A DNA stretch of 41,914 nt from a virus: positions 1 to 41,914 of the IMG/VR virus record IMGVR_UViG_3300041409_000068; one strand, written 5' to 3'. The position numbers and the translations under genes are program-made. Below, piece after piece: positions 19,037 through 40,862 of this stretch. The notes beneath the pieces were generated by a model. It worked only from the letters and a program-made list of their open reading frames with translations. It ran no database searches and was not told the origin of the DNA. Within the stretch, counting starts at the first letter, position 1. Every line of letters begins with the position of its first letter.

Positions 19037-19046
19037 GGGTGCGTTG
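19037..19046 (+). promoter_or_regulatory. Repeated late-region motif, copy 1 (GGGTGCGTTG)
   Basis: The motif starts 43 bases before the ATG at 19080. A hairpin TTGCCGG (19060-19066) / CCGGCAA (19074-19080) runs into the start codon. GGGT of the motif could pair with ACCC at 19072-19075. Confidence 0.5.
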
Positions 19047-19079
19047 TAAGTCGCGCCGATTGCCGGACATTACCCGGCA

Positions 19080-19607
19080 ATGGTCAATCGCCGCCCAACC
19101 CCAGAACTGATCCGCGCCCGCCAATGGGAGATCAAGCGGCGCTATGAGAATCACCCCAAGGTCGGCAAGCGGTCCCGCGGTATGGCCGCGATCCGCATTT
19201 CCGAGCTGACACGATGGCTGCATGATGAATACGGCGCCGGCGTCGAGCTCGAGCCAAGCGAGCGGTCCGAGCTGATCATCCGCATATTCGCCCACCACTT
19301 CCTGGGCCTGCCGCATGGCCCGCGTCGGGTGACATCGTGGTTTGATCTGTATTGCCCATGGCTCAGCCTGCGCGACCGGGAATACCTGATCAGCGAGGCC
19401 ACCCATTGCCCGCTCAAGTGGTCGGCCGACAAGCTGGCGTGGAAACTCGGCCTCAAGGACGATCAGCGCACCAGGCTCAAGATCACCACCATAGGTGCCA
19501 TCGACTGCAACAGGGAACAGCGCAAGGAACGCGACAAAGCCCGCCGCGCCGAGAGGGAACGGGCCCGCCGAGCAGCCAGGCGGCAAGCCCGCGTGCCCAC
19601 CATATAG
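19080..19607 (+). CDS. Conserved hypothetical protein with an ITTIGA-type block and a basic tail
   Basis: The 175-residue product begins MVNRRPTPELIRARQWEIKR and has ISELTRWLHDEYGAGVELEPSE, then FDLYCPWLSLRDREYLIS, CPLKWSADKLAWKLGL and LKITTIGAIDCNREQRKERDKAR, followed by an Arg-rich tail. The arrangement (a helical domain, then IxTIGAxD and a basic tail) recurs in hypothetical proteins of rhizobial mobile elements. DNA binding seems likely. It has no good ribosome binding site; the start codon is within a hairpin after motif copy 1. Confidence 0.65.
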   Translation: MVNRRPTPELIRARQWEIKRRYENHPKVGKRSRGMAAIRISELTRWLHDEYGAGVELEPSERSELIIRIFAHHFLGLPHGPRRVTSWFDLYCPWLSLRDREYLISEATHCPLKWSADKLAWKLGLKDDQRTRLKITTIGAIDCNREQRKERDKARRAERERARRAARRQARVPTI

Positions 19608-19643
19608 CTCTATAGATATGCAGGGCACGGCCTGCGGGTTGGC

Positions 19644-19653
19644 CCGTGCGTTG
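19644..19653 (+). promoter_or_regulatory. Repeated late-region motif, copy 2
   Basis: CCGTGCGTTG starts 44 bases before the ATG at 19688. No ribosome binding site is visible next to that ATG. Confidence 0.55.
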
Positions 19654-19687
19654 GCGAGCCTCTCACACCGCGCGCAATCATCGCGCC

Positions 19688-20140
19688 ATGCCCGCTACAG
19701 CCCTTGCCCGCCAGCCCGACGCCGCGACCGTGCCACAACCGGCCAAACGCGAGCGCATTCCGCCGAAGATTGCCGAAGCCGTCCGCCTGCTCCTCGACGG
19801 AACTTGTAAGACCCAAAAGGCCGCTGCCGAACGCGTAGGCATGAATGCGACCTATCTGTGTGAAGCGCTGACCAAACCGAAGATACAGGCGTTTATCGCG
19901 CGCGAAACTCGCAAAACCATCACGCAAGGCACAATGCGAGCGTCCGCGCGGCTGCTTGAGCTGGTCGACGCATCGTCCGAGCACGTCAGCCTCGACGCAT
20001 CCAAGCACGTCCTGGCCATCGAGGGCATCCGGCCACCTGAGCAGGGCGCGGCCAACGTTAACGTCAATGTATCAGTGGGTTACGTGATCGACCTGAGCGG
20101 ATCGCAACCAGCTGCACGGGTGATAGATGGGACAAGCTAA
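19688..20140 (+). CDS. Terminase small subunit-like DNA-binding protein
   Basis: The ATG at 19688 gives 150 residues (MPATALARQPDAATVPQPAK). The next block IPPKIAEAVRLLLDGTCKTQ with KAAAERVGMNATYLCEAL is an HTH, followed by FIARETRKTITQGTMRASAR and LLELVDASSEHVSLDASKHV, helices like those of TerS oligomers, and a VNVNVSVGYVIDLSG end. The position one non-coding block before TerL suits the small terminase subunit that recognises phage DNA. The in-frame start at 19646 falls within motif copy 2 and is rejected. Confidence 0.7.
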   Translation: MPATALARQPDAATVPQPAKRERIPPKIAEAVRLLLDGTCKTQKAAAERVGMNATYLCEALTKPKIQAFIARETRKTITQGTMRASARLLELVDASSEHVSLDASKHVLAIEGIRPPEQGAANVNVNVSVGYVIDLSGSQPAARVIDGTS

Positions 20141-20249
20141 CGGGTGTCAGCCTGTCACACGCCACGAAATCGAGGGTGGGGGTATCGATCCCCTGGCCGC
20201 GCGCTCAAGTCGACCGGCCCCCAAAAACGGCCGATCAAACCCCCGCCGC

Positions 20250-20281
20250 CCCTCTGCCCCTAGAGAATGTTCAAAAACCAT
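20250..20281 (+). repeat. Direct repeat, copy 1
   Basis: 32 bases beginning CCCTCTGCCCCT and ending AAAAACCAT. It is identical to copy 2 at 25 of 32 positions, with the ends conserved and the middle diverged. Confidence 0.65.
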
Positions 20282-20314
20282 TTCTGAAATCGGGTTCAGA
20301 CACGCGGCTCCCAA

Positions 20315-20330
20315 ATCAATCCGGATTGAT
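20315..20330. repeat. 16-base perfect palindrome
   Basis: ATCAATCCGGATTGAT is perfectly self-complementary and lies between the two direct repeats. Confidence 0.7.
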
Positions 20331-20403
20331 GAGGGGCCAGCCGTCGCAAGTATTGGCGGTGTCTGCGCGAAAGCGACCTTGGTTACGCGAGGTAAAGCCC
20401 GGT

Positions 20404-20435
20404 CCCTCTGCCCCTCAACATTCCCCAAAAACCAT
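20404..20435 (+). repeat. Direct repeat, copy 2
   Basis: 32 bases beginning CCCTCTGCCCCT and ending AAAAACCAT, 154 bases downstream of copy 1. Confidence 0.65.
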
Positions 20436-20505
20436 CTGGTGCACCGCGGGATCGGTTTTGCGGGTTCGATGGCTGGATTTTTATTTTCCGGGAAAGGTCG
20501 CTGAA

Positions 20506-20751
20506 ATGAGCAACATCATCGGACTGCGAGGCGAGCCGATCCGTCCACCGGGCGAGGCTGATCCTGTCGTCGTCAAAGCCCTGGAGGAATATTTGGAAAT
20601 GGCCCGCTCCGGAGAGATCAAGGGGATGACGGCTGTTTTTGTTCACGCCGACGACACCGTGACCGGCAGTCGGAAGGGTGAGAACACCTATCGGTCGATC
20701 GGGCTTCTCACGCACATGATCCACGATTTATGCGCGGCGCTGTCCGAATGA
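20506..20751 (+). CDS. Conserved phage hypothetical protein (81 aa)
   Basis: ATG at 20506 after GGAAAGG gives MSNIIGLRGEPIRPPGEADP, then VVKALEEYLEMARSGEIKGM, TAVFVHADDTVTGS and a helical LLTHMIHDLCAALSE end. The GExxxMAxVFVHADD block occurs in many proteobacterial phage proteins of unknown role. The in-frame stretch upstream to 20176 is in the non-coding block and lacks coding character, so I start at 20506. ATGA overlap downstream. Confidence 0.7.
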   Translation: MSNIIGLRGEPIRPPGEADPVVVKALEEYLEMARSGEIKGMTAVFVHADDTVTGSRKGENTYRSIGLLTHMIHDLCAALSE

Positions 20752-20918
20752 GCCTGCTCCCGTTCCAGACCGACGACGTGGTGCAGTGGCAGGGTCAGCT
20801 TGGCATTGTCGAGGAGGTCCGCGGCGACCGGGTGGTGGTGCGGACGGATGACGAGATGATGCACATCACGACGCAGGAGCGGTTGCGGGAGATGCAGCCG
20901 CGGCGGGGTGCGGCATGA
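20748..20918 (+). CDS. Small hypothetical protein (56 aa)
   Basis: ATG at 20748 (ATGA overlap) gives MSLLPFQTDDVVQWQGQLGI, then VEEVRGDRVVVRTDDEMMHI and TTQERLREMQP. The short beta-strand-rich core looks like a small SH3/KOW-like barrel, but no family is certain. It is coupled to the terminase large subunit gene by another 4-base overlap. Confidence 0.7.
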   Translation: MSLLPFQTDDVVQWQGQLGIVEEVRGDRVVVRTDDEMMHITTQERLREMQPRRGAA

Positions 20919-22435: not shown

Positions 22436-22923
22436 GCCTCGTCAGCCTGGTGCCGAAGCGCGACCCCAACGCCGTGATCGACCGGCTCTGGCTGGTGTTC
22501 TTCGGCGAGGCCGAGGGCGAGCCGTGGTGGTCGCGATTGCTCAAGCCCGGCTATCGCCACGTCGGGGCCTGCGCATGGTTCGACGATCAGCAGCGCTGGG
22601 TCTATTTCAATCCGGCCCGGCGCGGCACCGTGATCCTGCTCTATCGCGAGGACGAATTCCCGCCGCGGCTGACGCAGCTGATGAACTCCAGTTCACTGGT
22701 GCTGCGGGTGGTGGCGACGCAATCGCGGACGTCGACGCCGTTCGGATGGTGGTGCACCGGGGCGGTCAAGGCGCTGCTCGGCACGCGCTGCCGTGCCGTC
22801 ACCCCGTTCGGTCTGGCCCAGCACCTGCAGGACCGCGGCGCCGAGGCGGTCCTGATGCCGTGCGTTGCCGCCGCGCCGACATCTTCGCCACCTTCCGGCC
22901 ATGGCGAGCCTATTCACACCTGA
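22432..22923 (+). CDS. Conserved phage hypothetical protein between terminase and portal (163 aa)
   Basis: The GTG at 22432 overlaps the terL stop (GTGA). The product contains DPNAVIDRLWLVFFGEAEGE, then PWWSRLLKPGYRHVGACAWF and QRWVYFNPARRGTVILLYRE. The family sits next to terL or portal genes in many alphaproteobacterial phages, and its function is unknown. The last part contains motif copy 3 and overlaps the next gene by 23 bases, so its C terminus serves as regulatory DNA too. Confidence 0.75.
   Translation: MSLVSLVPKRDPNAVIDRLWLVFFGEAEGEPWWSRLLKPGYRHVGACAWFDDQQRWVYFNPARRGTVILLYREDEFPPRLTQLMNSSSLVLRVVATQSRTSTPFGWWCTGAVKALLGTRCRAVTPFGLAQHLQDRGAEAVLMPCVAAAPTSSPPSGHGEPIHT
22858..22867 (+). 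promoter_or_regulatory. Repeated late-region motif, copy 3 (inside a gene)
   Basis: CCGTGCGTTG starts 43 bases before the ATG at 22901, although it lies within the coding sequence of the preceding gene. Confidence 0.5.
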
Positions 22924-23122
22924 CGTCCCCCAAGCCGATCCTTCCATTGCGAGGCAGCAAAAGGATGAGCAGGACCGTGCCGAGGCGGCGCGGTTGCGCG
23001 AAACCCAGCAGCAGCTCGGCGTGGAAACCCGGATTCGAAACGGTAGCCGCGGATCGGCCTCCGGATTCCGCTCGCTGCTCGGATCGTTCGGCAGCGGCCA
23101 GTCGTTGCTGGGCTCGAGCTGA
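22901..23122 (+). CDS. Small virion-region protein before the portal (73 aa)
   Basis: ATG at 22901 gives MASLFTPDVPQADPSIARQQ, a charged helix KDEQDRAEAARLRETQQQLG and a Gly/Ser-rich end GFRSLLGSFGSGQSLLG. Short proteins with a helical middle and an SLLG-type end precede portal genes in related podovirus-like genomes; the role is unknown. The in-frame start at 22865 would lie in the motif. The stop overlaps the portal ATG (TGATG). Confidence 0.75.
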   Translation: MASLFTPDVPQADPSIARQQKDEQDRAEAARLRETQQQLGVETRIRNGSRGSASGFRSLLGSFGSGQSLLGSS

Positions 23123-24732: not shown

Positions 24733-25004
24733 GCGAACCGCATTGGGGCAACCTTCGGCAGCCCGGCACGACCGAACAGTCGGCCAAGCCCGACAACGAA
24801 TTCGACGCCGTCTGCGCCGAGGTGTTCACCTCCGGCAGCGGCAAGCGGCTGCTCGCGGCGCTGCGCAAGAAGCATTTCGAGTTGGGCGGAAATGCCCGCG
24901 CCGAGGAGCGCGATCTCCGCATCAGGGTGACCAACCAGCAGTTCATCCACGATCTGGAATCGGCATGCGCGCGCGGTCTCGCGGCCGGCAAGAAAGCTCC
25001 CTGA
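24729..25004 (+). CDS. Bbp19-like structural protein (91 aa)
   Basis: The product begins MSEPHWGNLRQPGTTEQSAK, then EFDAVCAEVFTSGSGKRLLA and ALRKKHFELG. The xVFxSGSGKRxLAxLR segment is characteristic of the Bbp19 family found beside the portal in Bordetella phage BPP-1-like podoviruses. Its exact role in the particle is not established. ATGA overlap with the portal gene. Confidence 0.8.
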   Translation: MSEPHWGNLRQPGTTEQSAKPDNEFDAVCAEVFTSGSGKRLLAALRKKHFELGGNARAEERDLRIRVTNQQFIHDLESACARGLAAGKKAP

Positions 25005-25011
25005 CTTCCGC

Positions 25012-25021
25012 CCGTGCGTTG
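25012..25021 (+). promoter_or_regulatory. Repeated late-region motif, copy 4
   Basis: CCGTGCGTTG starts 69 bases before the ATG at 25081, right after the previous stop. A hairpin CCTCAT (25024-25029) / ATGAGG (25037-25042) fills the longer leader. CACGG at 25062-25066 could pair with CCGTG of the motif. Confidence 0.5.
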
Positions 25022-25080
25022 CCCCTCATTTCGAGCATGAGGCAGTTTTCGCGTCACCGAACACGGAAACCGAACATCTT

Positions 25081-25797
25081 ATGACCGACGCGCCTTCGCC
25101 AGCACCTGCACCTGCTCCCGCGCCTTCACCGGCCCCGGCGCCCGCGCCTGCGCCCGCCGCCGCCACGCGGCCGGAAGCGATCGCGGAGAATTACTGGGAC
25201 GCGACCGCCAACACGATCAAGCTGGATGAGTTCACCCCGCACTACGCCGAACTCGCCACTTTCCATCGCACCGAGACCGAGCGCCAGGCCGCCCTCGCAG
25301 CGCGCAAGCCTGAGGATATCAAATTCGAGGTCAAGCTGCCCGACACCGTCAAGGTGCCCGACGGCATGGATCTCAAGATCAACCCGGATGATCCCCGCGT
25401 ACCGGTGCTTCGCGAACTCGCCGTCACCCATGGCCTCAGCCAGGACGTCGTGAACTCGCTCGTGGCGCTCGATGCGCAGCAGCAGATCGCGATGCACGCC
25501 GCCGAGCAGACCCGCATCGCCGCCGCCGACGCCAAGCTCGGCGCCAACGCCAAGGACCGCAAGGCCGCGGTCGGCAACTGGCTCAAGGGCATGAAGGATC
25601 GCAACGAACTTTCCGGCGAGGAATACGAGGCGGTCCGCGTCTACGCGACCGACGCCGAGACCGTCACCGCGCTGGAAAAAATCATGGCCAAGGCGGGCGG
25701 TAACGTTCCCGGCCATCAGCCCGACAATCCCAATCCACCCGCTCCGGTCCGACAGGCAGATCGCTGGTACCCCGACACAGCAAAGAAGGTTAGCTGA
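25081..25797 (+). CDS. Scaffolding-like protein (238 aa)
   Basis: The N-terminal ~30 residues are a Pro-Ala repeat (PAPAPAPAPSPAPAPAPAPA). The rest is helical: LAVTHGLSQDVVNSLVALDA, KLGANAKDRKAAVGNWLKGM and VRVYATDAETVTALEKIMAK, followed by a flexible Pro-rich end. This organisation and its place just before the capsid gene are typical of podovirus scaffold/assembly proteins. The Pro-Ala stretch is low-complexity DNA and may vary between relatives. Confidence 0.8.
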   Translation: MTDAPSPAPAPAPAPSPAPAPAPAPAAATRPEAIAENYWDATANTIKLDEFTPHYAELATFHRTETERQAALAARKPEDIKFEVKLPDTVKVPDGMDLKINPDDPRVPVLRELAVTHGLSQDVVNSLVALDAQQQIAMHAAEQTRIAAADAKLGANAKDRKAAVGNWLKGMKDRNELSGEEYEAVRVYATDAETVTALEKIMAKAGGNVPGHQPDNPNPPAPVRQADRWYPDTAKKVS

Positions 25798-25799
25798 CC

Positions 25800-26801: not shown

Positions 26802-26851
26802 GCGGCGCAAGCGCCGCCTGCTGCACGCCAACTCTTTGAAGGACGACCTCG

Positions 26852-27328: not shown

Positions 27329-27360
27329 GTAGCTGGCGCACCTGATCTGAGGGATTGAAC

Positions 27361-27585: not shown

Positions 27586-27587
27586 TC

Positions 27588-28082: not shown

Positions 28083-28110
28083 GCTTTCTTCACGGCCTCC
28101 CTCGACAGAG

Positions 28111-28138
28111 ACCGCCCATGCCCGGGCGGTCTTTTTTT
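28111..28138 (+). terminator. Rho-independent terminator after the capsid unit
   Basis: ACCGCCC pairs with GGGCGGT around a short loop, followed directly by a run of seven T. It lies 29 bases after the stop at 28082, and motif copy 5 begins 3 bases later. Confidence 0.9.
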
Positions 28139-28140
28139 GC

Positions 28141-28150
28141 CCGTGCGTTG
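28141..28150 (+). promoter_or_regulatory. Repeated late-region motif, copy 5
   Basis: CCGTGCGTTG starts 42 bases before the ATG at 28183 and directly follows a terminator, so a new transcript probably starts around here. Confidence 0.6.
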
Positions 28151-28182
28151 TCGCGCTGGCGGCACCCGGGCGAAGGTTCGGC

Positions 28183-29208
28183 ATGACATACGACCGCAAA
28201 GTATTCCGCGCATCACATGACGCCGTCGGCGCGCCGGGCGATACGGCGGCCACCGATTCAACGTCGGACTGGACGCAGGTCTCTCTGCTCAAGGGGCTGT
28301 ATCAACTCCTCGGCGTCACCGGCATTACGGTCAGCGGTGGCACGCTGGCGACGTCCGCCAAACAGGACACCGGCAACACCACCCTGGCCGCGATCGACGG
28401 CCATGTCGACGGGTTGGAAGCGCTGGGCACTGCTGGTAATGCCTCGCTCGCGTCGATCGACACCAAGCTCACCAGCATCAACTTCAATACCGACACCCTC
28501 GAAACCGCGCTCGGCATCACCACCGAAACCGCGCCAGCTTCGGACACGGCATCGTCCGGTCTCAACGGTCGACTGCAGCGGGTCGCGCAGCGGCTGACCT
28601 CACTGATCGCTCAGATCCCGGCAACCCTCGGCGTCAAGGCCCGAACTGCCTCGCTATCGGTCGCGATGGCCACCGAGGATGCCGCGCTCTTTCCGGCGTC
28701 GCTCGGTGCCAAGGCGGCCGCCTCGTCATTCGCCGTTACCCAGTCCACCGAGGATGCCGCACAACTCGGCTCGTTGACGGAAACTGCCCCGGCATCGGAT
28801 ACTGCATCAAGCGGACTGAATGGCCGGTTGCAGCGCATCGCCCAGCGCCTGACGACGCTGATCGGCACCACGCTGACAACCCAGCTCGCCGCCGCCACCA
28901 ACGCCGTCACCACGGCCTACGCCACCAACCTCGTTGTCAAGGCTTCGGCCGGCACGCTCTATGGGCTGTCCGGTTACAACAGCAAGACGTCCGCGCAGTT
29001 CATCCAAATCCATGACGCCACTTCGCTGCCGGCGGACACGGCGGTGCCGAAGGTCCTTTTCCTGGTGCAGGCATCCTCGCCGTTCTCAATCGATTTCGGC
29101 GCGCGCGGCCGGGCGTTCGCCACAGGCATCACTGTCTGCAATTCGTCCACCGGTCCGACCAAGACCATCGGCAGTGCCGATATCTGGGTCGACGCGCAAT
29201 ATACATGA
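28183..29208 (+). CDS. Virion structural protein with internal duplication (341 aa)
   Basis: The protein begins [20 protein letters not shown]. It carries two near-identical 29-residue blocks ([20 protein letters not shown] and following AQRLTxLI) at about 114-142 and 199-227. Its C-terminal ~85 residues include [40 protein letters not shown] and [20 protein letters not shown], a beta-sandwich domain common in phage head or appendage proteins. It is likely a fibrous or decoration protein. No ribosome binding site is evident. Confidence 0.75.
28522..28608 (+). repeat. Internal coding repeat, copy 1 (87 bases)
   Basis: It encodes [20 protein letters not shown] and following residues. Copy 2 at 28777-28863 is nearly identical as protein, with many synonymous base changes. 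Confidence 0.8.
28777..28863 (+). repeat. Internal coding repeat, copy 2 (87 bases)
   Basis: The offset from copy 1 is 255 bases (85 codons), so the frame is kept. Only a few residues differ (for example V/I and S/T). Confidence 0.8.
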
Positions 29209-29218
29209 TGAGGCGTCC

Positions 29219-29699: not shown

Positions 29700-29709
29700 C
29701 CGTGCGTTG
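29700..29709 (+). promoter_or_regulatory. Repeated late-region motif, copy 6
   Basis: CCGTGCGTTG starts 42 bases before the ATG at 29742. CCGTGCG (29700-29706) could pair with CGCACGG at 29729-29735. Confidence 0.6.
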
Positions 29710-29741
29710 TCGGGTCCGGCCGGTCCGCCGCACGGTCCGGT

Positions 29742-30362
29742 ATGGCCATCTCAGACTTCACCGTCATCAACGCCGCAGCCACCCGGACCGGGAATATCCC
29801 GGTGACCTCGCTTGCCAGTGACGGCGGCCCCGTCGCCCAGATCGCGCTCTCCAATTACGAGGACGCGGTCAAGACCGAGCTGGCGCTGTACCCGTGGAAG
29901 CGGGCCACCAAGATCGTGCAGATCGACCGGCTCGACCCCAACACCATGGGCGATCCGCCGGAGCCGTGGACCGCGGCCTATCAGTTACCCACCGACCTGA
30001 TCGAAATCCGCACCGTGAAGGTGTCGGGCTATCCGATCGATTACGAGGTCCACAGCACCAAGATCCTGTGCGACGCATCCGAGACCGACGAGGTGATCCT
30101 GCATTACATCTGGCGGGTGCCGGAATCGCAGTGGCCGGCATGGTTCCGCGAGGGAATGATCCGCCGGCTGGAGGCCATTTTCCTGCGAGGCATCGGCGAG
30201 CGAGCGACCGAGGCCCGCGCCCGGGACAAGGCTGCCGACGATTCCTTCGCGCTCGCCCGCAACCGGGACAGCCAATCGCAGACGCCGCGCGATCCGACGA
30301 CCTCGCCGACGCTCGCCGCCCGCGGCGGCGCGTCAACTTACTCGCGAACTTTCCCGCGCTGA
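29742..30362 (+). CDS. Tail tubular protein A (gp11-like)
   Basis: The 206-residue product matches T7 gp11-type tail tubular protein A: SDFTVINAAATRTGNIPVTS, then IALSNYEDAVKTELALYPWK, PWTAAYQLPTDLIEIRTVKV and EVILHYIWRVPESQWPAWF, with a helical C-terminal segment. Together with protein B it builds the short tail tube below the connector. The next gene starts after a GAGGTGA site 8 bases on. Confidence 0.88.
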   Translation: MAISDFTVINAAATRTGNIPVTSLASDGGPVAQIALSNYEDAVKTELALYPWKRATKIVQIDRLDPNTMGDPPEPWTAAYQLPTDLIEIRTVKVSGYPIDYEVHSTKILCDASETDEVILHYIWRVPESQWPAWFREGMIRRLEAIFLRGIGERATEARARDKAADDSFALARNRDSQSQTPRDPTTSPTLAARGGASTYSRTFPR

Positions 30363-30370: not shown

Positions 30371-32491
30371 ATGGCGCGGCGCAAAACCCTGCAGACCAGC
30401 TTCGCGGCGGGAGAGCTCGCGCCCGAAGTGGCGATGCGACAGGACACCGACCAGTACCAGAACGGCGCCGCATCGCTGCTTAACCGGCGGATGCTGATCG
30501 GCGGGGGGCATGTGCGCCGTCCGGGCTCATGGCTCGAGGCGGTACTCGGCACCGATCCGATCATCACGGAATTCATCGTCAACCAGACCACGCAATACAT
30601 CCTGTCGTTCACCGCAGGCGCGATGCACGCCTATGTCAGGGACACCACCACCGGCCATCTGACCGCGGCGGGCTCGATCACCGGTGCGCCATGGAGCGGG
30701 ACGATCTACAAGGAGATGGACTGGGTCCAGCGCGGCAACGTGATTTTCCTGGCTCATGCCTCGATGATCACCCAGCGGATCGAGCGCACCGGCGCGGCGA
30801 CGTGGTCGCGCGCCAATTTTGCATTCTCGGTCGGCGCGGCCTCCAGGCCCGAACAGCCCTATCTCAAGGTGGCGTCGCCCGCCATCACGCTGCGGCCGTC
30901 GGCGCTGACCGGGTCGGTCACGCTGCTGGCGTCGGCCGCGGTGTTCGTGGCCGGACACGTCGGCCAGTATATCCGCTATCTCGGCAAGGCGATGTTGATC
31001 ACCGCGGTCACCGACACGACGCACGCCACCGCGACCGTGATCGAAACCCTGCCGACCACGCAAACCCTGACCGTGACGAGTTCGGCCAGCTTCGCAACCA
31101 GCGAGTCCGTCGCTGGCGTCACGTCGGGGGCAAAGGGCTTCGTCACCGGTATTCCGGATGCGACCCATCTCACAGTCGTGGTATCCGAGGGCCTGATCCC
31201 GTTCGCGGTCGAAAATATCGTCGGCCCCAATGCCGTGACGGCGATCTCCGCTGTGGCAACAGCCACGCCGGCGGCGGTGGCCGACTGGGACGAGCAGATT
31301 TTCGGGCCGGTCTATGGCTATCCCGCCTGCATCGAGCTGCACCGCAACCGGCTGGTGTTCGGCGGCCACCCGGCGGCGCCGGACTACATGATCGCTTCCG
31401 TGATCGACGATCTTTATAATTTCAACGTCGGCACCGGCGGCGACGCGGACGCAATCATCGAGTCCATCGGCGACGCCGGCGCATCGAAAATCCTGCAATT
31501 CTCGTCCGCCGAGCAGCTGCTGGTGCTGACCGATCGCGGGCCGTATTACGTGCCGGAAGGACAGAACGCGCCATTCCGCCCGTCGTCGATCTCGTTTCTG
31601 CCGTTCGGCTCGCCTTGGCCGATCAACGCCACCGCTCAGGTGCAGGCGTTCGACTCCGGCGCCGTGATGGTGTCGGGTTCGCTGATCATCAAGGCGCGGC
31701 AGACCGGCAACGTGACCGCGACATGGGACGCTGACGAGGTGTCGCTGCTGGCCCCGCATCTGATCGAGACCCCGGACCGCATCGCCGTCACCAGCAACTT
31801 CGCCGGCAACCCGGAGCGCTATGCCGTGTTCCGCAATTCGGACGGCACGCTGGCGGTCCTGCAGCTGGTCGAGGTGCAGAAAATCCGCAACTTCACGCCA
31901 TGGACGACGGACGGAACGTATCTGTCGGTCGCGTCGATCTCGGGCGATCTCTACGCGGCGGTGCAGCGCGAATTCGGCGGCACCACCCACTACTATCTCG
32001 AATTGTTCGATCAGGAACTGACGCTGGATTGCGCGACGCAGTTCGCCACCAAGACCGCGATGGACGCCGGCGTGACCGCGATCTACTCGACGCAGGACGT
32101 CAACGTGGTGACGCCGGACTATCACCTCGGCGTATGGCCGCTCACGATCCGCACCGTCCCGGATGGCCCGTTCACGGTCGGGCTGTACTACACCTCGGTG
32201 ACGCGGATCCTGCCGCCCATCATCGCCGGCCCCGAAGGGCCGATGGCCGGTGACCTGATGCGGATCCTCGAATGCTATGTGCACGTCCTGACCTCGGCCC
32301 GGTTCAGCGCCAACGGCTACACGCTGTCGGCTTACCAATTATCCGAGGACGTGTCGGAGCCGCCGCCGCTCAAGAACGGCCCGCAGCGCTTTCAGTTCAT
32401 GGGGTGGGAGCGCGAACCGACGGTGACGATCACCCAGGCCGATCCGCTCCCCCTGAAGATACTCGCAATCAAAACAACGGTGGCCTTTTAG
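30371..32491 (+). CDS. Tail tubular protein B (gp12-like)
   Basis: The 706-residue product is of the podovirus gp12 type: MARRKTLQTSFAAGELAPEV, RQDTDQYQNGAASLLNRRML, GGHVRRPGSWLEAVLG at the start, a PAAVADWDEQIFGPVYGYPA segment, then RLVFGGHPAAPDYMIASVID and a long beta-propeller-like body including LLVLTDRGPYYVPEG. It forms the distal tail hub or nozzle. It is followed without gap by the internal virion protein genes. Confidence 0.9.
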   Translation: MARRKTLQTSFAAGELAPEVAMRQDTDQYQNGAASLLNRRMLIGGGHVRRPGSWLEAVLGTDPIITEFIVNQTTQYILSFTAGAMHAYVRDTTTGHLTAAGSITGAPWSGTIYKEMDWVQRGNVIFLAHASMITQRIERTGAATWSRANFAFSVGAASRPEQPYLKVASPAITLRPSALTGSVTLLASAAVFVAGHVGQYIRYLGKAMLITAVTDTTHATATVIETLPTTQTLTVTSSASFATSESVAGVTSGAKGFVTGIPDATHLTVVVSEGLIPFAVENIVGPNAVTAISAVATATPAAVADWDEQIFGPVYGYPACIELHRNRLVFGGHPAAPDYMIASVIDDLYNFNVGTGGDADAIIESIGDAGASKILQFSSAEQLLVLTDRGPYYVPEGQNAPFRPSSISFLPFGSPWPINATAQVQAFDSGAVMVSGSLIIKARQTGNVTATWDADEVSLLAPHLIETPDRIAVTSNFAGNPERYAVFRNSDGTLAVLQLVEVQKIRNFTPWTTDGTYLSVASISGDLYAAVQREFGGTTHYYLELFDQELTLDCATQFATKTAMDAGVTAIYSTQDVNVVTPDYHLGVWPLTIRTVPDGPFTVGLYYTSVTRILPPIIAGPEGPMAGDLMRILECYVHVLTSARFSANGYTLSAYQLSEDVSEPPPLKNGPQRFQFMGWEREPTVTITQADPLPLKILAIKTTVAF

Positions 32492-32968: not shown

Positions 32969-32971
32969 CAC

Positions 32972-35824
32972 ATGGCAACCGGAACAGGACTGCCAGCCCC
33001 GCAGAGCGGCGGCCCGGTGCTCGCACAGGCGGCGGGCGGCGTGTCCGCCGACGCGCTGTTCAATGCGCAGTCGTGGACGCAGATCGCGGGCGCGGGCGAG
33101 CAGCTGGCGAAGGCCGGCGGCGACTATCTCAAGGTCGCCGAGCACAAGGCCCAGGTCGGCTATCTCAGCGATCAGGATGTCGAAATCCAGCGCAAGCAGA
33201 TCGAGTACCGCAACACCCACGCCAACGATCCGGCCGGCTTTGACGCGGCATGGAACGGCTATGCCGAGGGCAAGCTGTCGACCGCCGAGCCGTGGGCGAT
33301 CAACCATATCCGCGCCAAGCTCGGCGCATCCGGCAACGGCGCCTATTCCGCGATCCTGAACGAAACCCGGGTCCAGACCGAGAGGAAGGCCGAACTGAGC
33401 TGGAGCACGCTGCACGACATGGCGGCGCAGGACGTGCAGTCGGCGGCGATGGCGGGCACGCTCAATACGCCGGAAGGCCAGCTCAAGGTCGAGAAATACC
33501 GCGGCGTGGTCGCCACCGGCGTCACCAGCCAGTTCATCGTGCCGGAGGTCGCCGAGCAGCGCGTCGCCACGCTGGAATCTGTGGCAACGGTCTACGCCGC
33601 ACGCGCCGGCATCAAGAGCACCTTCGACGCCGATGGCCCGATCGCCGCGGTCAAACAGATCGACGAGATCGCCCGCGACGAAAAGCTGCGGTTGTCGCCG
33701 GAGCAGCGGCTGTCGCTGGGGGCCAAGCTGCGCGCGGACGTGCATGCGTGGGACGCCGAGCGAACGCAGAACCTGTCCACGGTCGATCTGGAATCGAAGT
33801 CGCTGCTGCAGGCCAAGCAGGGCGGCATCCCGATCCCGCAGACCCGCATCGACGAGGTGGTCAGCCGCTACAAGCGGTTCGGCGGCCAGGCGCAGGCCGC
33901 GTCCTTCCTCGCCGACGTGCAGCATTCCGAGGATATGTCGTTCCTGTCCCGCGCGCCGCTGGCGCAGTCGGCGGCGTGGATCGAAGAATACAAGACCTCG
34001 CGCGGGTTCTCGACCGCGGTCAACACCGCAATTCCGGCGGAAGGTCGCGCGCTGCTGGACCGGATCGCCGGTCCGGAATCCGGCGGACGATACGACGTCC
34101 GATATGGCGGCCAGCGCTTTCAGAACTTCGCCGATCACCCGCGCGTGGCCGAGCCGATCACCAGCGGCCCCGACGTCGGCAAGACCTCCAGCGCCGCCGG
34201 CCGCTATCAGTTCATCGGCTCGACCTGGGACGACCAGGCCAAGAAACTCGGGCTGACGAACTTCTCGCCCGCCAATCAGGATGCGGCGGCGTGGAATCTG
34301 GCGCAGGAGGAATACAAGTCCAAGACGGGCAAAGACCTCCTGACGGTGCTCCGGTCCGACGACAAAGCCGCAATCGCTGAGGTGCCGCGCACCCTGTCCG
34401 GCCAGTGGTCGTCGCTGCCCGGCGGCCGGCAGCCAGCGGCAGTCGCGGTCCCCGCCACTCCGAGCGACGTCGCCCATATCGGCAAGGCCAATCAGCTGGT
34501 CGCCAAGCGGGTCAGCGACGAGGCCGACGGCATCATCAAGGGCATGGCCGACAAGGACAACCCGGTGCTGCCGACCGAGCAGCGCATCAACGACCTGCTG
34601 ACCGCGGCGTCGGCAACCAACATGCCGGAGGTGCTGCAGCGGGTTTCGCAGGCGGCCGCGGAATACCAATTCCGCCGCCAGTTCGGCCGCGCACCGGAGC
34701 CGCAGGAGACCGCCTATGTCACCGACCTGCAGCGCCGCGCCGCCACCGAGGGCCTGAGCGCCACCGATGCGCGCCGGCTCGAGATCGCGACCGAAACCCG
34801 TGACCGCACTGCCAAGGCGCTGGCCGACGACCCGCTCGACCACACCGTCGCCGCGCTGGCCGAAACCGCCGGGATGCCGCCGCCGGCGCCGCTCAACATC
34901 GGCAACCCCGTGGCGTTCCGCGGTGGCCTGGCCGCGCGGGCGCAATGGGCCGAAACCGGGACGCGCACCTTCGAGACCGGCCCGATGCCGGCGCTGACCA
35001 CCGCCGAGGCCACCCAGGTCCGCGCGGCGCTGGATGCCGCCGACCCCGCCGGCAAGGCCCGCATCTATGGTGACATCGTCGCGACAACGTCCGGCGGCAC
35101 CCGCGCGGCGACGCTGGCCAAGATCGCCGGCAACGGCGGCGCCAACGGCATGGTCGAGGCATTTGCCGGAGGGATGTTCGGCATGGACCCGGCGGTCGGG
35201 GAAAGCATCATCCGCGGGCAGGGCGCGCTCAAACTCAAGGACGCCTACAACCCGATGAAGGACGGCAACAAGGAAAACTCGTCGGCCGCGATCGACAAGT
35301 ATTTCCCGGCCGGCGCGTTCACGCTGGCAGCGCGCACCGATCCGCAGGGCGCCTATGCGGTGATGCGCGGGGCCATCGTCGCCCGCGTCGCCGACATCGC
35401 CGCGACCGATCCCAATTTCGACGGCAAGTTCACCGACGCCATGTTCGAGCGCGCGGCCAATGACGTGACCGGCGGGGTGGTGCGCCACAACGGCGGCAGC
35501 CTGATCTCGCCCGCGCGCGGCATGACCCAGCGCGGCTTCGACGCCAAGATGGCGGGCCTGACCGACGGCGACGTGCAGGGCGTCATGACCCAGAGCGGCA
35601 CGCCGATCACCGCCGATTACGTCCGCAACAACGCGCAACTGGAGAGCCTGTCGGACGGCCGCTATCTGGTCCGGCTCGGCCGGGATCCGGAGCGGCCGAT
35701 CTATGCGTTCCGGGACGTCGGCGCCAACGTGCCGAACCGGTTGCGGCCCTTCATCCTCGATCTGCGCAACGTCACGCCGGCGACCCCCGCGATCGATCCG
35801 ACCCATGCCGGACCGCTGCCATGA
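32972..35824 (+). CDS. Internal virion protein with GH104-like murein-degrading domain
   Basis: The 950-residue protein has long helical N- and C-terminal parts. Residues ~358-475 form a lambda-R-type (GH104) transglycosylase-like domain: RALLDRIAGPESGGRYDVRY with probable catalytic E369, QNFADHPRVAEPI, TSSAAGRYQFIGSTWDDQAK and FSPANQDAAAWNLAQEEY. It probably locally opens the peptidoglycan while DNA enters, like the lytic domain of T7 gp16. The domain is central here rather than at the N terminus. No separate endolysin or holin is visible in this window. Confidence 0.88.
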   Translation: MATGTGLPAPQSGGPVLAQAAGGVSADALFNAQSWTQIAGAGEQLAKAGGDYLKVAEHKAQVGYLSDQDVEIQRKQIEYRNTHANDPAGFDAAWNGYAEGKLSTAEPWAINHIRAKLGASGNGAYSAILNETRVQTERKAELSWSTLHDMAAQDVQSAAMAGTLNTPEGQLKVEKYRGVVATGVTSQFIVPEVAEQRVATLESVATVYAARAGIKSTFDADGPIAAVKQIDEIARDEKLRLSPEQRLSLGAKLRADVHAWDAERTQNLSTVDLESKSLLQAKQGGIPIPQTRIDEVVSRYKRFGGQAQAASFLADVQHSEDMSFLSRAPLAQSAAWIEEYKTSRGFSTAVNTAIPAEGRALLDRIAGPESGGRYDVRYGGQRFQNFADHPRVAEPITSGPDVGKTSSAAGRYQFIGSTWDDQAKKLGLTNFSPANQDAAAWNLAQEEYKSKTGKDLLTVLRSDDKAAIAEVPRTLSGQWSSLPGGRQPAAVAVPATPSDVAHIGKANQLVAKRVSDEADGIIKGMADKDNPVLPTEQRINDLLTAASATNMPEVLQRVSQAAAEYQFRRQFGRAPEPQETAYVTDLQRRAATEGLSATDARRLEIATETRDRTAKALADDPLDHTVAALAETAGMPPPAPLNIGNPVAFRGGLAARAQWAETGTRTFETGPMPALTTAEATQVRAALDAADPAGKARIYGDIVATTSGGTRAATLAKIAGNGGANGMVEAFAGGMFGMDPAVGESIIRGQGALKLKDAYNPMKDGNKENSSAAIDKYFPAGAFTLAARTDPQGAYAVMRGAIVARVADIAATDPNFDGKFTDAMFERAANDVTGGVVRHNGGSLISPARGMTQRGFDAKMAGLTDGDVQGVMTQSGTPITADYVRNNAQLESLSDGRYLVRLGRDPERPIYAFRDVGANVPNRLRPFILDLRNVTPATPAIDPTHAGPLP

Positions 35825-37881
35825 GCCTCGACCTGTTCGCCAGCAACATCGACGACGCCGTGGCCTACGCGGGGCGGGTATCCGCGCCCGAACTGCCCTC
35901 GACCTTCTCCGACAATTTCAACGAGGCGTGGAACAAGGGCTATCTGACGGGGCAGTCGATCTCGGGCGAAATCCGCAAGACCACGGCCCGCCAGCGGTTC
36001 GTCGACGACGCCATCGCCAAGACTGGCGATCGATCCTTCGAGCAATCGGCCGAAGGCGGCGGCTTCGATGTCGCGGGCTTCAACGCCAAGGTGGCGAAGC
36101 ACCGGGCAGAGCGGCCGGACCTCGATATCCAGCCGATGTCGGATGAGGCGATCCAGACCCGCGCGGACGAGATCGGCAAGACGCAACTGGCGGACAGCGA
36201 GGCGTTCGGCCGCCGCGAGCGCACCACAGGCGGCACGGTCGGCTCGTTCCTCGGCACCGCCGGCGCGATGCTGACCGACCCCGTCAACCTGATCGCCTTC
36301 CCGCTGGCGGCTCCGGAGTCGCTCGGCATTCTCGGCACTGCGATGGCATGGGGCGCGATCGGCGCAGGATCGCAGACCGCCATTGAGGCCCTGAACGCGA
36401 CCAGCATGGAGCGCATCAAGCCCGGCTACGGCGCATCGAGCGAGCCGGTGGAGAACATCCTTGAGGCCGGCCTCGCCGGTGGCGTGCTCGGCGGCGGGAT
36501 CAAGGGCCTGTCGAGCCTGTGGACCCGCGCCAAATCCGGCTCATGGCCCCGCACCGTCCGCGACGCCGGCAACGTGATCGAGAGCGAGGCGCAGATCGCC
36601 ACCACGAATCCGCTGCCTGGCGTCGAAGGCGAGGCCACCCACCGCACCGCGATCAGCAAGGCCATCGACGACATCGCCAACGGTCGGCCGGTCGACGTGG
36701 ATGGCATCGTGCCGCCGCAGATGGCTTCGAGCATCGAGGCGTGGCATGGATCGCCGCATGACTTCGATGCGTTCGATGTTTCGAAAATCGGCACCGGCGA
36801 GGGCGCGCAGGCGTATGGGCACGGGCTCTATTTTGCCGAGGCCGAGGGCACCGCCAAATCCTACAAGGACGCCTATGTGCCATACCGCACGCCGGTTGAT
36901 GCGCAAAAGTACGGCCTTGCCGATGCCGACGCCGCCCGCATTTCGTCGGACTTTATGCACTTCCGGATGAACAAAAGCGTCGAGGCCATCGACGATGAGA
37001 TCGCTTCGCGGATACAGCACCCTCGCGTCGGAGCGAACGCACTGGCGCTGGACATTTTGCAGGGGCCGAAGCCAGAGGGAAACATTTACAAGGTCAAGAT
37101 CACCGCGAACAAGGACCACATGCTCGACTGGGACAAGCCCCTGAACGAGCAGTCACCAGAGGTCTTGGCAAGACTTCAGCCCCTGATTGACGCGAAGCTA
37201 GCAGAGTTTCAGGGCCAGCGCGGCGGCGGGCCGCTTCTCGACCCCGCAAATGACCTCACGCCGGAAGGCTACCTGCAGACAGGTGCACTCAAGGGGCAGG
37301 GCTTCTATCAGATGCTTGGGGATGGCTTGGAAAAAGCTGACGCCAGCCGCGCGCTGGCGGACGCGGGCATTCCGGGCGTGAAATATGCTGATGCCTTTTC
37401 CCGGGGAGCGGACGATGGTGGCACGCGAAACTTGGTCGTGTTCAACGACAAGGATGTGCAAATCACCCACAAAAACGGCAAGCCGGTCAGCCCGGAGATC
37501 AGGCAGGACGTTGTCGACCGGGCGGCGGGGCTGTCTCCGAAGCAGCCTGAGCTGGCGCTGGCACAGCCGGAAACCACGAAGCCTGCCGGGCCGGACACTG
37601 ATGCTGTGAAAGCGCTCGATGCCGAGTTGACCCCGCAGCGCATTGAGGAGATGCGGTCGGATGTCGACATGGCCGACACCATCTCCCGCGATCTCGACAA
37701 ACTGATGCTGGAGCGGCCGGACATGGAGGTGCCCACGGGGGTGACCGTCGACGCCGATGGCCGCACCGTGCCGACCACGCGCAAGGTGGAAAGCGTCGTC
37801 GCTGAGGCCGATGCGCGGCTGGCAGCGGCCAAGGAAATTGAGGGGTGCGTTGGTCCGTACCCGGCATCCGAAGCAGCATGA
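35821..37881 (+). CDS. Internal virion protein with ADP-ribosyltransferase (ART-PolyVal-like) domain
   Basis: The 686-residue protein has an internal-virion-type N-terminal part, with a hydrophobic region at ~138-190 (GTVGSFLGTAGAMLTDPVNL...). At ~306-550 it carries an ADP-ribosyltransferase domain resembling ART-PolyVal: EAWHGSPHDFDAFDVSKIGT (H309), GEGAQAYGHGLYFAEAEGTA (Y337), NIYKVKITANKDHMLDWDKP, and GTRNLVVFNDKDVQIT. The C-terminal part returns to virion-protein style. If ejected with the DNA it could modify a host target with ADP-ribose from NAD+. The domain's base use looks a little less GC-biased than its flanks. The catalytic glutamate cannot be assigned with certainty. The start overlaps the upstream stop by 4 bases. 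Confidence 0.75.
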   Translation: MSLDLFASNIDDAVAYAGRVSAPELPSTFSDNFNEAWNKGYLTGQSISGEIRKTTARQRFVDDAIAKTGDRSFEQSAEGGGFDVAGFNAKVAKHRAERPDLDIQPMSDEAIQTRADEIGKTQLADSEAFGRRERTTGGTVGSFLGTAGAMLTDPVNLIAFPLAAPESLGILGTAMAWGAIGAGSQTAIEALNATSMERIKPGYGASSEPVENILEAGLAGGVLGGGIKGLSSLWTRAKSGSWPRTVRDAGNVIESEAQIATTNPLPGVEGEATHRTAISKAIDDIANGRPVDVDGIVPPQMASSIEAWHGSPHDFDAFDVSKIGTGEGAQAYGHGLYFAEAEGTAKSYKDAYVPYRTPVDAQKYGLADADAARISSDFMHFRMNKSVEAIDDEIASRIQHPRVGANALALDILQGPKPEGNIYKVKITANKDHMLDWDKPLNEQSPEVLARLQPLIDAKLAEFQGQRGGGPLLDPANDLTPEGYLQTGALKGQGFYQMLGDGLEKADASRALADAGIPGVKYADAFSRGADDGGTRNLVVFNDKDVQITHKNGKPVSPEIRQDVVDRAAGLSPKQPELALAQPETTKPAGPDTDAVKALDAELTPQRIEEMRSDVDMADTISRDLDKLMLERPDMEVPTGVTVDADGRTVPTTRKVESVVAEADARLAAAKEIEGCVGPYPASEAA
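37843..37852 (+). promoter_or_regulatory. Repeated late-region motif, copy 7 (GGGTGCGTTG, inside a gene)
   Basis: The motif lies in the last codons of the upstream gene, 81 bases before the ATG at 37924. GGGT could pair with ACCC at 37859-37862. This is the weakest spacing match of the set. Confidence 0.35.
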
Positions 37882-37923
37882 TGTCGGTTTTTGTGACCAT
37901 CCAGTAGGGGCGAGAAAATCGAC

Positions 37924-40356
37924 ATGAGCGTTCTTCGCTGCGTCACCAACCTCGTCTCCGAGGGCAAGATCACCAAGGCGCTCGGCGACGAGGCGCTGGC
38001 GCTGTACGAACGCAGCAAGGGCGAATTCCAGAAGAACATGGGCCCCGCCGAGGCCGAGGCTGCCGCCGCGCTGGCGACGGCGCGCGCGATGGAGGCCGGC
38101 GCCAAGCGGATGAAGAACGACGTGGCCAAACAGGCCATCGCCTTCGCCAATTTCGAGCGGACCATGATGGAGCATCAGGACGGGCCGATTGCCGGCGTGC
38201 TCGACCAGCTGACGCAATCGCTGAGATCGCGCGGCACCCGGAACGTCGATGCGGTGCGGGATGACATCTGGAACACACTGTCGGCCAAGTTCGGCGAGAG
38301 CATGGAGAAATACGCGCCGGGCCTGCTGGGGGCGAGCCGGGCGCAGATCGATTCCGCCAAGAACATCATCCGCGAGGTGTTCGGGGTGCAGACCGGCGAT
38401 AACCTGGCCAGCGCGGCCGGCAAGTCGTTCGGCGAGGTCCGGACCATCGCGGAGGACCGGGCGCGGTCGGCCGGCAAGAACTTCGAGCAGAACGAGAACT
38501 GGCGGGTGCCGCAGCCGTGGAATTCGGCCCAGGTCAAGAAGGTCAAGGAGGCCGAATTCGTCTCCGACTTCATGGCCGAGGTCGACGGCGGCGGAATCGC
38601 CCGGCTGTGGGATACCCGCAACAATGTCCCGGCCAGCGCCGCGGATCGGGAATTCATCCTCAAGCGGGCCTATGCCGACATCACGGGGTCCGGCGGCGGC
38701 GTGGGGACGTTCTCGCCGACCCAGCGCACCTTTGAGTTCGCCGACGGGTCCGCCGGCGCGGAGGCGTGGCTCAAGCTGCAGGGCAAGTACGGCGTCGGCG
38801 ACGGGGTGATGCAGCTGATCACCGGGCACATGAACAAGATGGCGTCCGAGATCGCCATGGCCGAGGTGATCGGCCCGAACCACCGCGCGATCATTTCGGC
38901 GGTTTTACCCCGCTTGAAGGCCGCCGAAGCCCAGTTATCCACAGCGCAACGGCTCAATCCGGTCCGGCTGCTGGAAAGCGCCAAGATGGTCGAGAAGGTC
39001 TATGCGGTCCAGAACGGGGCGGCCAACGTGGTCGATGGTCCTGTGATGGCTGGCATCCTGGGCGGGCTACGGAGCATCAGCACGGCGGCGCAGCTCAAGG
39101 GGGCTGTCCTGTCGGCGATCCCCGGGGACAGCGTCACGAGCTTCCTGGCGGGCAATTTCAACGGCATGCCGGTGGGACGGTTGATCGCCGGCGTGGCCCG
39201 GGACATCGCCATGTCCGGCGCTGAGTCCAAGAACCTCGCCGCCCGGCTCAATCTAACCGCCCACGCCGCGATGGATTTCAACCACGGCTACCGGTTCTTT
39301 CAGGATCAGGTCGCGGGGCCGGCCCAGCTGAGGTTCATGGCCACCACGGTGGTCCGGGCGCAGGGCCTGCAGGCGTGGACCGAGATGATGAAACGGGTGT
39401 TCTCGATGGAGTTCACCGGGCATCTGGCCGACCACGTCCACCTGCCGTTTGCCGAGTTGCAAGGCGTCAACAAGCCGCTGGCCAACTTCATTGAGCGCTA
39501 CGGCATCAGCCCGGCCGAATGGGACGCCATCCGCGCCGCGCCGCTGCTCGAAACCAACGGCACCAAATTCCTCGACACCAGCGCTATCGCCGACCAGCGG
39601 CTGGGGGAAAAGCTGCGGACCGGCATCAATCAGGAGCGCCGCTTCGCCGTGCTGGAACCGGATTCGCGATCGCGCGCGCTGACCACCGGCGGGCATGCGC
39701 AGGGCACCTTTGCCGGCGAAATGCACCGCAGCATCGGCATGTTCAAGTCGTTCACGATCTCGATGGCCGCGACCCATATGATGCGGATTTTCTCGCAGCA
39801 GACCTGGGGCGAGATGGCGAAGGTCGGCCTGCCGTTCATGCTGACCCACTTCATGGTCGGCGCCGCCGCGATCCAGGCCAAGAACATCTTCTACGGCAAG
39901 GATCCGCAGGCGATGGACACCGGCAAGTTCTGGGTGTCGGCGATGGCGCAGGGCGGCGGGCTCGGCGTCTATGGAGACATGCTGAATTCGACCCTCGCGA
40001 AATCCGGCCGCTCGTGGCAGGCCGAAGTCGCCGGCCCGATCGGCGGCATCGTCGAGGACGCAATCAAGCTGACGTCCGCCCAGACCCGCAAGCTGTACGA
40101 GGGCAAGGACACCAATTTTGCCACCGAGCTCGTGCGCGTCGGGCGGCGGTACACACCAGGCACCTTCTATACAAAGACCGCCGTCGACCGGCTGCTCTGG
40201 GATAACCTGCAGGAACTCGCCGATCCGGATTACCGCGGCTCGTTCCGGCGGATGGAGAAGAAGCTGAAAGACGAAACCGGCCAGCAGATGTGGTGGGGTT
40301 CAGGACAGAATGTGCCAGAGCGAGCTCCTAATTTGGGTGCCATCGTAGGCCGGTAG
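37924..40356 (+). CDS. Large internal virion protein (810 aa)
   Basis: The protein begins MSVLRCVTNLVSEGKITKAL and has long helical stretches (KGEFQKNMGPAEAEAAAALA), a FVSDFMAEVDGGGIARLWDT segment, several hydrophobic helices (KVGLPFMLTHFMVGAAAIQA at ~640) and an end with GTFYTKTAVDRLLWDNLQEL. Its size and position after the other internal proteins suggest a gp15/gp16-type core protein that is ejected to form the DNA conduit across the cell envelope. GGGGCGAG precedes the ATG by about 10 bases. No lytic domain is seen here; it lies in the 32972-35824 product. Confidence 0.82.
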   Translation: MSVLRCVTNLVSEGKITKALGDEALALYERSKGEFQKNMGPAEAEAAAALATARAMEAGAKRMKNDVAKQAIAFANFERTMMEHQDGPIAGVLDQLTQSLRSRGTRNVDAVRDDIWNTLSAKFGESMEKYAPGLLGASRAQIDSAKNIIREVFGVQTGDNLASAAGKSFGEVRTIAEDRARSAGKNFEQNENWRVPQPWNSAQVKKVKEAEFVSDFMAEVDGGGIARLWDTRNNVPASAADREFILKRAYADITGSGGGVGTFSPTQRTFEFADGSAGAEAWLKLQGKYGVGDGVMQLITGHMNKMASEIAMAEVIGPNHRAIISAVLPRLKAAEAQLSTAQRLNPVRLLESAKMVEKVYAVQNGAANVVDGPVMAGILGGLRSISTAAQLKGAVLSAIPGDSVTSFLAGNFNGMPVGRLIAGVARDIAMSGAESKNLAARLNLTAHAAMDFNHGYRFFQDQVAGPAQLRFMATTVVRAQGLQAWTEMMKRVFSMEFTGHLADHVHLPFAELQGVNKPLANFIERYGISPAEWDAIRAAPLLETNGTKFLDTSAIADQRLGEKLRTGINQERRFAVLEPDSRSRALTTGGHAQGTFAGEMHRSIGMFKSFTISMAATHMMRIFSQQTWGEMAKVGLPFMLTHFMVGAAAIQAKNIFYGKDPQAMDTGKFWVSAMAQGGGLGVYGDMLNSTLAKSGRSWQAEVAGPIGGIVEDAIKLTSAQTRKLYEGKDTNFATELVRVGRRYTPGTFYTKTAVDRLLWDNLQELADPDYRGSFRRMEKKLKDETGQQMWWGSGQNVPERAPNLGAIVGR

Positions 40357-40366
40357 CCGTGCGTTG
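40357..40366 (+). promoter_or_regulatory. Repeated late-region motif, copy 8
   Basis: CCGTGCGTTG starts 42 bases before the ATG at 40399 and directly follows the previous stop. CCGT could pair with ACGG at 40393-40396. Confidence 0.55.
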
Positions 40367-40398
40367 GGAGCGCCCGAAAGCTGCGTCAAAATACGGTT

Positions 40399-40851
40399 AT
40401 GCAGCTTTTCCCGATCGAAGAAATTGAATCCGAGGCCGCTGGGGTTGACCATGCCTTGATGGCCTACAGGGCGCTGGCGGCGCAGCATTTGGTCGCTAGC
40501 GACATACTCTGCCGTGGTTACGGGGTTTCTATCGCGGCAGAGAAACTCCGGTACGACCTGATCGCAGATATCGGCGGGCTCAAGCGGGTCCAAGTCAAAA
40601 TGACCAATGGCATGCAAATGGCCAGTGGCTATTTGCGCTACCGGTTCTGGGGTGGAAACCACAATAGCAAACTGCGCGACTACATCGGTGACGTGGACCT
40701 TTTGGCCTTCGTTGCCATGGATATCCGACGAATAAAATACGCCCTCCCAGAGAGTGTCGATCTGGTGCAGGCCGCATTCAAACCTGCCGAATTTGACATG
40801 GACCGCTGCGAGCTTGCTTGGCAGCAGGTCCTTCGGTCGTGGGGCGGGTAG
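40399..40851 (+). CDS. PD-(D/E)XK nuclease-like protein in the late region (150 aa)
   Basis: The product contains GYGVSIAAEKLRYDLIADIG and GLKRVQVKMTNGMQMASGYL. YDLIAD plus VQVK resembles the D...QxK core of PDDEXK_5/I-Ssp6803I-type endonucleases, in which glutamine replaces the usual acidic residue, and an upstream glutamate is available. The gene lies alone between an internal virion gene and the tailspike gene, has its own motif copy, no ribosome binding site and lower GC, and so looks inserted (a homing-type or moron gene). Cleavage target and activity are unknown. Confidence 0.65.
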   Translation: MQLFPIEEIESEAAGVDHALMAYRALAAQHLVASDILCRGYGVSIAAEKLRYDLIADIGGLKRVQVKMTNGMQMASGYLRYRFWGGNHNSKLRDYIGDVDLLAFVAMDIRRIKYALPESVDLVQAAFKPAEFDMDRCELAWQQVLRSWGG

Positions 40852-40852
40852 C

Positions 40853-40862
40853 CCGTGCGTTG
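40853..40862 (+). promoter_or_regulatory. Repeated late-region motif, copy 9
   Basis: CCGTGCGTTG directly follows the previous stop and lies 63 bases before the TTG start of the tailspike gene. GTGCG could pair with CGCAC at 40882-40886. Confidence 0.55.

Follow-up and report, generated by a model that had tools for sequence, protein, structure and literature searches.

The stretch of DNA analysed here (the window, 41,914 bases) is the IMG/VR virus record IMGVR_UViG_3300041409_000068, whose podovirus-like late region encodes terminase subunits, a portal protein (head–tail connector), and capsid, tail and internal virion proteins. A ten-base motif, SSGTGCGTTG, is repeated ahead of genes of this region at nine exact sites, all on the plus strand and none on the minus strand, against 0.94 sites expected (dinucleotide shuffles: mean 0.94, maximum 4). 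The conserved unit is the 8-mer GTGCGTTG, and the first two of the ten bases lie outside the invariant core. Among 280 permutations of its letters, GTGCGTTG alone reached nine plus-strand and no minus-strand sites in the window. The nine coordinates and the strand given in the original prediction were exact, as were its motif-to-start distances, which by position of the copies are 43, 44, 43, 69, 42, 42, 81, 42 and 63 bases. Together with a −10 element downstream, GTGCGTTG appears to form the promoter of late (virion) gene blocks in a group of bacterial viruses. The features of the window that bear on this interpretation are as follows.

15714–16217, plus strand: candidate late activator, predicted XRE-type helix-turn-helix (HTH) protein of 167 amino acids with a C-terminal GGxxRA...L...IARKAxxxRW segment.
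19037–19080, plus strand: putative late promoter P1 with GGGTGCGTTG; weaker −10-like A19067/T19071 at spacing 20; predicted +1 at about 19078; ATG at 19080.
From ATG 19080, plus strand: gene downstream of P1, 175 amino acids, unknown function.
19644–19688, plus strand: putative late promoter P2 with CCGTGCGTTG; −10-like A19677/T19681 at spacing 23 (usual 22); predicted +1 at ATG 19688 (terminase small subunit).
22858–22901, plus strand: putative late promoter P3 with CCGTGCGTTG; A22890/T22894; predicted +1 at ATG 22901 (73-amino-acid gene ahead of the portal gene).
25012–25081, plus strand: putative late promoter P4 with CCGTGCGTTG; A25044/T25048; predicted +1 at 25055; 26-nucleotide leader; ATG at 25081.
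From ATG 25081, plus strand: scaffold/protease-like gene downstream of P4, followed by the major capsid gene.
28107–28138, plus strand: intrinsic terminator directly 5′ of P5; 11-bp stem and U tract; −20.5 kcal/mol, z = −5.1.
28141–28183, plus strand: putative late promoter P5 with CCGTGCGTTG; A28173/T28177; predicted +1 at or adjoining ATG 28183.
29700–29742, plus strand: putative late promoter P6 with CCGTGCGTTG; A29732/T29736; predicted +1 adjoining ATG 29742 (tail protein operon).
37843–37924, plus strand: putative late promoter P7 with GGGTGCGTTG; A37875/T37879; predicted +1 at 37886; 38-nucleotide leader; ATG at 37924 (virion structural protein).
40357–40399, plus strand: putative late promoter P8 with CCGTGCGTTG; A40388/T40392 at spacing 21; predicted +1 at ATG 40399.
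40853–40916, plus strand: putative late promoter P9 with CCGTGCGTTG; A40885/T40889; predicted +1 at 40896; 20-nucleotide leader; TTG at 40916 (tail-fibre gene).

P3 sits within the 3′ part of another reading frame. The terminator originally proposed just ahead of the copy at 28141 is real, and of three copies said to follow a stop codon directly, only that at 40357 does so, those at 40853 and 25012 lying one and seven bases after one.

About 40 loci from relatives of the window were gathered in two scans, which used its capsid and portal proteins, and their comparison shows two sequence blocks at a kept spacing, coupling to start codons, a strand rule, genome-specific flanks and a co-occurring HTH protein. 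GTGCGTTG is recurrent in contigs with a portal identity of about 50% or more, nearly always on the late-gene strand, and its carriers comprise 20 related phage contigs and one Bradyrhizobium phage-plasmid. The two bases ahead of it vary freely among the relatives. No named phage relative of the window was identified by DNA, and portal identity to named phages was 32% or less. In 11 contigs, exact GTGCGTTG was found at 76 sites on the plus strand and six on the minus strand. The minus-strand tail-fibre genes of contigs G003, G008 and G011 each have a copy of the box on their own strand.

The second block was revealed by an ungapped alignment of 90 non-redundant sites, in which the constancy of the 8-mer itself is set by site selection: A occupies position 31 in 79 sites, T position 35 in 72 and C position 30 in 68. 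An A-N3-T element follows GTGCGTTG at 22 nucleotides (22 ± 1 as a rule, range 20–23), matching the A(−11) and T(−7) by which a sigma70-family −10 element is recognised. Across the 11 contigs, CAnnnT stands at spacing 22 in 42 of 76 sites, at 21 in seven more and at any other spacing in zero to two, and one-mismatch versions of GTGCGTTG are without this coupling. Of 22 related records, 18 contain the pattern GTGCGTTG-N21..23-ANNNT, with dozens of matches in all, and its reversed control gave none. A TTGACA-like −35 element is absent from these sites; TTG alone fits, and positions −33 and −32 carry genome-specific bases instead of A and C. The motif, being bipartite with a free spacer, also differs from the contiguous promoters (~20 bp) of T7-type single-subunit RNA polymerases, and PF00940 (phage RNA polymerase) had no match in 21 records, a search in which control genomes gave no match either. 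We infer that the promoters use sigma70 and are active late. The suggestion of a phage-specific promoter element in the original prediction is well supported by the bipartite structure, its fixed spacing, its presence in relatives, its location on the strand of the downstream gene and its fixed distance to the start; the search of related phages that had been proposed recovered the 8-mer in 20 contigs, coupled to starts.

For predicting transcription starts, +1 was placed seven bases after T(−7), and an ATG was counted if its frame had at least 50 codons. An ATG lies at −1 to +3 of the predicted +1 at 76 of 118 sites, compared with 127 of 4700 shifted control positions (2.7%). Most genes with the predicted +1 at their ATG (60 of 77) are without a Shine–Dalgarno match of three nucleotides or more, and such a match is present in 28 of 29 genes with longer predicted leaders. 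Absence of a Shine–Dalgarno sequence and a predicted +1 at the start codon, as seen here, are marks of leaderless promoters of the phiYS40 or lambda PRM type, and the predicted leaderless transcripts explain the shortage of good ribosome binding sites noted before. Most late messages are predicted to open with the start codon itself and to have no leader for ribosome binding, including those from six of the nine promoters in the window. We infer both the position of transcription start, to which the ATG coupling lends indirect support, and leaderless translation.

The bases adjoining the 8-mer suggest who reads it. Positions 0, 9 and 10 are far more alike within than between phages (z = 17, 18 and 13, respectively), and this genome-specific effect is little or absent at most positions farther away. 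Phage-specific flanks are unexpected for a host factor, which points to a phage-encoded protein as the reader of the box. A phage sigma factor in this role was sought and rejected: the region 2 domain Sigma70_r2 was detected in none of 21 records, and the control was positive in 10 genomes. The HTH family of 15714–16217 is the sole nearly universal non-structural family among the 20 carrier contigs, being present in 19 of them, and the exception, G004, is without an early region. With a wider profile, nine of 42 further records matched, and these are the ones with three or more late-strand sites, bar one fragment; several of the nine had contributed to building the profile and five had not. 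The family was absent from the other 33, whose sites are few or lacking and ten of which exceed 30 kb. The HTH searches also covered G024 and G055. The protein has no Pfam match and is predicted to adopt an XRE/lambda-repressor-like HTH fold: the predicted local distance difference test score (pLDDT) of its model exceeds 90 over much of residues 11–66, and Foldseek ranked mainly proteins of XRE type at the top (best E 0.03, probability 1.0). The nearest structures include controller proteins of restriction–modification (R–M) systems, with weak E-values. The 15714–16217 protein is the best candidate activator, proposed on its co-occurrence with the box and on the genome-specific flanks; activator-dependent phage late promoters of the Mu, P2 or T4 type need such a DNA-binding protein from the phage. 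Another gene considered as regulator, 19080–19607, was rejected, as it is present in just two of seven relatives. In three phages only (G003, G011 and G020), an Arg in the putative recognition helix may go together with a position 0 that is not C.

An independent record was chosen by portal alone, through tblastn of plasmid records with the portal protein. The match, at 26% identity, was NZ_CP094518.1 (Bradyrhizobium sp. ISRA432, 46.6 kb), which contains six GTGCGTTG sites on the plus strand and none on the minus strand, with CG after every one. Among the 280 permutations of the 8-mer, one alone shows this count and strand bias in that record. A protein of the HTH family is encoded at the junction of its early and late genes (E 1.7e-17). 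The record (L179) was deposited as a plasmid, and its gene content is that of a complete-looking podovirus-like phage or phage-plasmid. Among plasmid records, the best matches of the GapR-like and integrase proteins are from Alphaproteobacteria. Only one carrier was found among the genome contigs searched, a 50-kb phage contig (L096, JAIVGO010000002.1) in a metagenome-assembled genome labelled Actinomycetota, a label that is probably a binning error.

We regard it as probable that GTGCGTTG is the box of an alphaproteobacterial phage late promoter, with a sigma70-family −10 element, a phage activator (likely 15714–16217) and mostly leaderless units. In this mechanism, GTGCGTTG would serve as the upstream recognition box, predicted to span −41 to −34, and host RNA polymerase with a sigma70-family factor would probably read the CAnnnT −10 element 22 nucleotides downstream. 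The phage activator, most likely the XRE-type HTH protein, would probably read GTGCGTTG and neighbouring bases, replace the normal −35 element and recruit the polymerase. Transcription would begin at or adjoining the AUG, leaving most late units leaderless, and where +1 falls farther upstream, a Shine–Dalgarno sequence would usually be present. More tentatively, and with considerable doubt, we propose a transcription switch not described before, in which one phage protein of XRE type would stand in for the −35 contact of sigma70. It would do so at an asymmetric box of 11 bp, with an 8-bp core frozen across very distant phages and edges that co-evolve with each phage, and most late units would be expressed from leaderless mRNAs.

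Several observations weigh against this reading. A recognisable −10 is lacking at 24 of 142 sites, about a sixth, and a clear one at three of the six sites in NZ_CP094518.1; the −10 elements of P1 and P2 in the window are off the usual spacing, and sigma70 promoters do not usually have C at −12. The HTH model has a weak Foldseek match (E 0.03), and in the clade of G025, G029, G042 and G030 the HTH gene lies away from the late region. HTH proteins of this type are common in alphaproteobacterial prophages, so the co-occurrence is confounded by shared ancestry. Flank divergence correlates with HTH divergence (r 0.45) and with portal divergence (r 0.54), and the partial Mantel correlation of 0.09 is not significant, so that coevolution of flanks and HTH protein was not separable from shared ancestry.

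Two alternatives keep the promoter and change its reader. Another phage-encoded protein, such as a small HTH protein not recognised as conserved, might read the box; other small HTH proteins do occur upstream of the candidate in single phages, for example the LuxR-type WP_280970210.1 of the Bradyrhizobium record, and the core is invariant despite divergence of the candidate to 20–25% identity. No other non-structural family, however, reaches even 14 of the 20 carrier contigs, and we consider such a reader unlikely. It is less likely still that the phages borrow an alternative sigma factor of the host, with the box as its −35 element. A sigma factor would be expected to read just such a target, an invariant asymmetric 8-mer at a fixed distance from a −10, and no sigma factor was found in the phages themselves; yet the bases beside the core vary from phage to phage, and in the metagenome-assembled genome with a carrier phage, whose assignment to this host is uncertain, matches to the pattern cluster in the phage contig and are elsewhere near the control count. 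We know of no alphaproteobacterial sigma factor with a GTGCGTTG-like −35.

The remaining alternatives take the box away from transcription initiation. An RNA leader or translation-enhancer element in the transcript could account for the fixed distance to ATG of six of the nine window copies, and an arm complementary to NNGT is in weak excess (29 of 142 sites versus 21 expected, p = 0.03). Against this, the window has no Rfam match above the gathering score, three of four tested leaders fold like shuffles (the exception being 19037), and some relatives, several in number, have the motif within coding sequence, where its reading frame, judged by eye, is not always the same. AnnnT is at spacing 22 in 55% of sites without a nearby ATG versus 63% of sites with one, and that this spacing is kept with or without a start codon speaks for a DNA promoter and against leader RNA. 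RNA structure was accordingly rejected and a leader element is very improbable: of the original interpretation the promoter part stood, and the RNA-leader part did not, since the motif lies upstream of the predicted start, the −10 spacing is independent of the start codon, and the pairing of its first bases with a downstream complement is unsupported, with no convincing covariation. Short, oriented one-strand repeats can serve packaging, replication or recombination, and the one-strand bias of GTGCGTTG in the 11 contigs fits such a role; the box nevertheless goes with gene starts, whichever strand these are on, and has a −10-like partner, which makes this the least credible explanation.

Some side observations concern individual sites and genes. 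Positions 19037–19083 fold clearly better than shuffles (z −3.5), into a hairpin ending at the start codon. In the G003 contig (L060–L062), positions 31805–31874 of the record hold two boxes back to back in a CAACGCACGTGCGTTG palindrome, from which a tail gene and the tail-fibre gene would be transcribed divergently. In L013, L010 and L011, the box 5′ of the portal gene lies within a conserved reading frame, and the frame differs by phage (VRC versus RAL or GAL). The window also encodes a GapR-like DNA-binding protein (12117–12494, PF10073), present in 12 of 20 carrier contigs, a serine recombinase (17610–18230, Resolvase PF00239), and a tail fibre (40916–41914), whose counterparts are on the opposite strand in G003, G008 and G011. 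Residues ~304–380 of its 686-amino-acid virion protein (35821–37881) match endolysin and unknown PHROGs and resemble domains often fused to phage internal proteins.

Among known systems, the middle promoter Pm of phage Mu is activated by the phage protein Mor in place of a −35 element, with host sigma70 polymerase reading the −10 (PMC4390567), and the activator proposed here would act likewise. The site that Mor binds is 16 bp long, contains inverted repeats and is centred at −43.5, whereas the box here is short and asymmetric (8 bp, or 11 bp if the flanks are counted), occurs at many promoters per genome and has a candidate reader of XRE type. Most middle and late mRNAs of the Thermus phage phiYS40 are leaderless (PMC3594737), as predicted here for late messages. 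Leaderless bacteriophage genes have been noted to have promoters with an extended −10 motif (PMC4842269). An extended −10 is also what describes promoters of the phiYS40 type, in contrast to the invariant upstream box found here, and hosts and phages differ. Transcripts dependent on the R–M controller C.PvuII start at the initiator codon (PMC2997769), and such C proteins are likewise small XRE-fold activators, near the candidate by Foldseek, a likeness in fold from which sequence-level homology is not claimed; they act on their own operon through palindromic C-boxes, whereas here one protein would act at six or more promoters of a phage, and their boxes are not palindromic. In the gene transfer agent of Caulobacter, GafY and GafZ activate through sigma70 at a degenerate −35 (PMC11150451), which is similar in being sigma70 activation of a phage-like late cluster in an alphaproteobacterium; GafY, however, acts far upstream with IHF, GafZ binds between −10 and −35, and no common motif was noted. 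The description that fits best is of a promoter working like those of Mor-type activators in Mu, together with leaderless late expression as in phiYS40, membership in neither being claimed. The sequence, the candidate protein family and their combination were not found in the open-licence literature searched, in which a text search for the 8-mer gave unrelated matches only, among the matches listed.

These results provide a full map of predicted late promoters, open to testing, for a group of alphaproteobacterial phages, both uncultivated and integrated, of previously unknown regulation, and name a candidate late activator from a family without assigned function. The 8-mer and −10 pattern is also usable as a search tool, having picked out several further phage groups in IMG/VR. 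Most late gene blocks of these phages are predicted to be read from leaderless messages. In Caulobacter crescentus 375 leaderless mRNAs have been reported (PMC4117421), and in Bradyrhizobium japonicum 192 starts lie exactly at start codons (PMC4842269). Since Alphaproteobacteria translate leaderless mRNAs well, the carrier phages may exploit this proficiency of their hosts.

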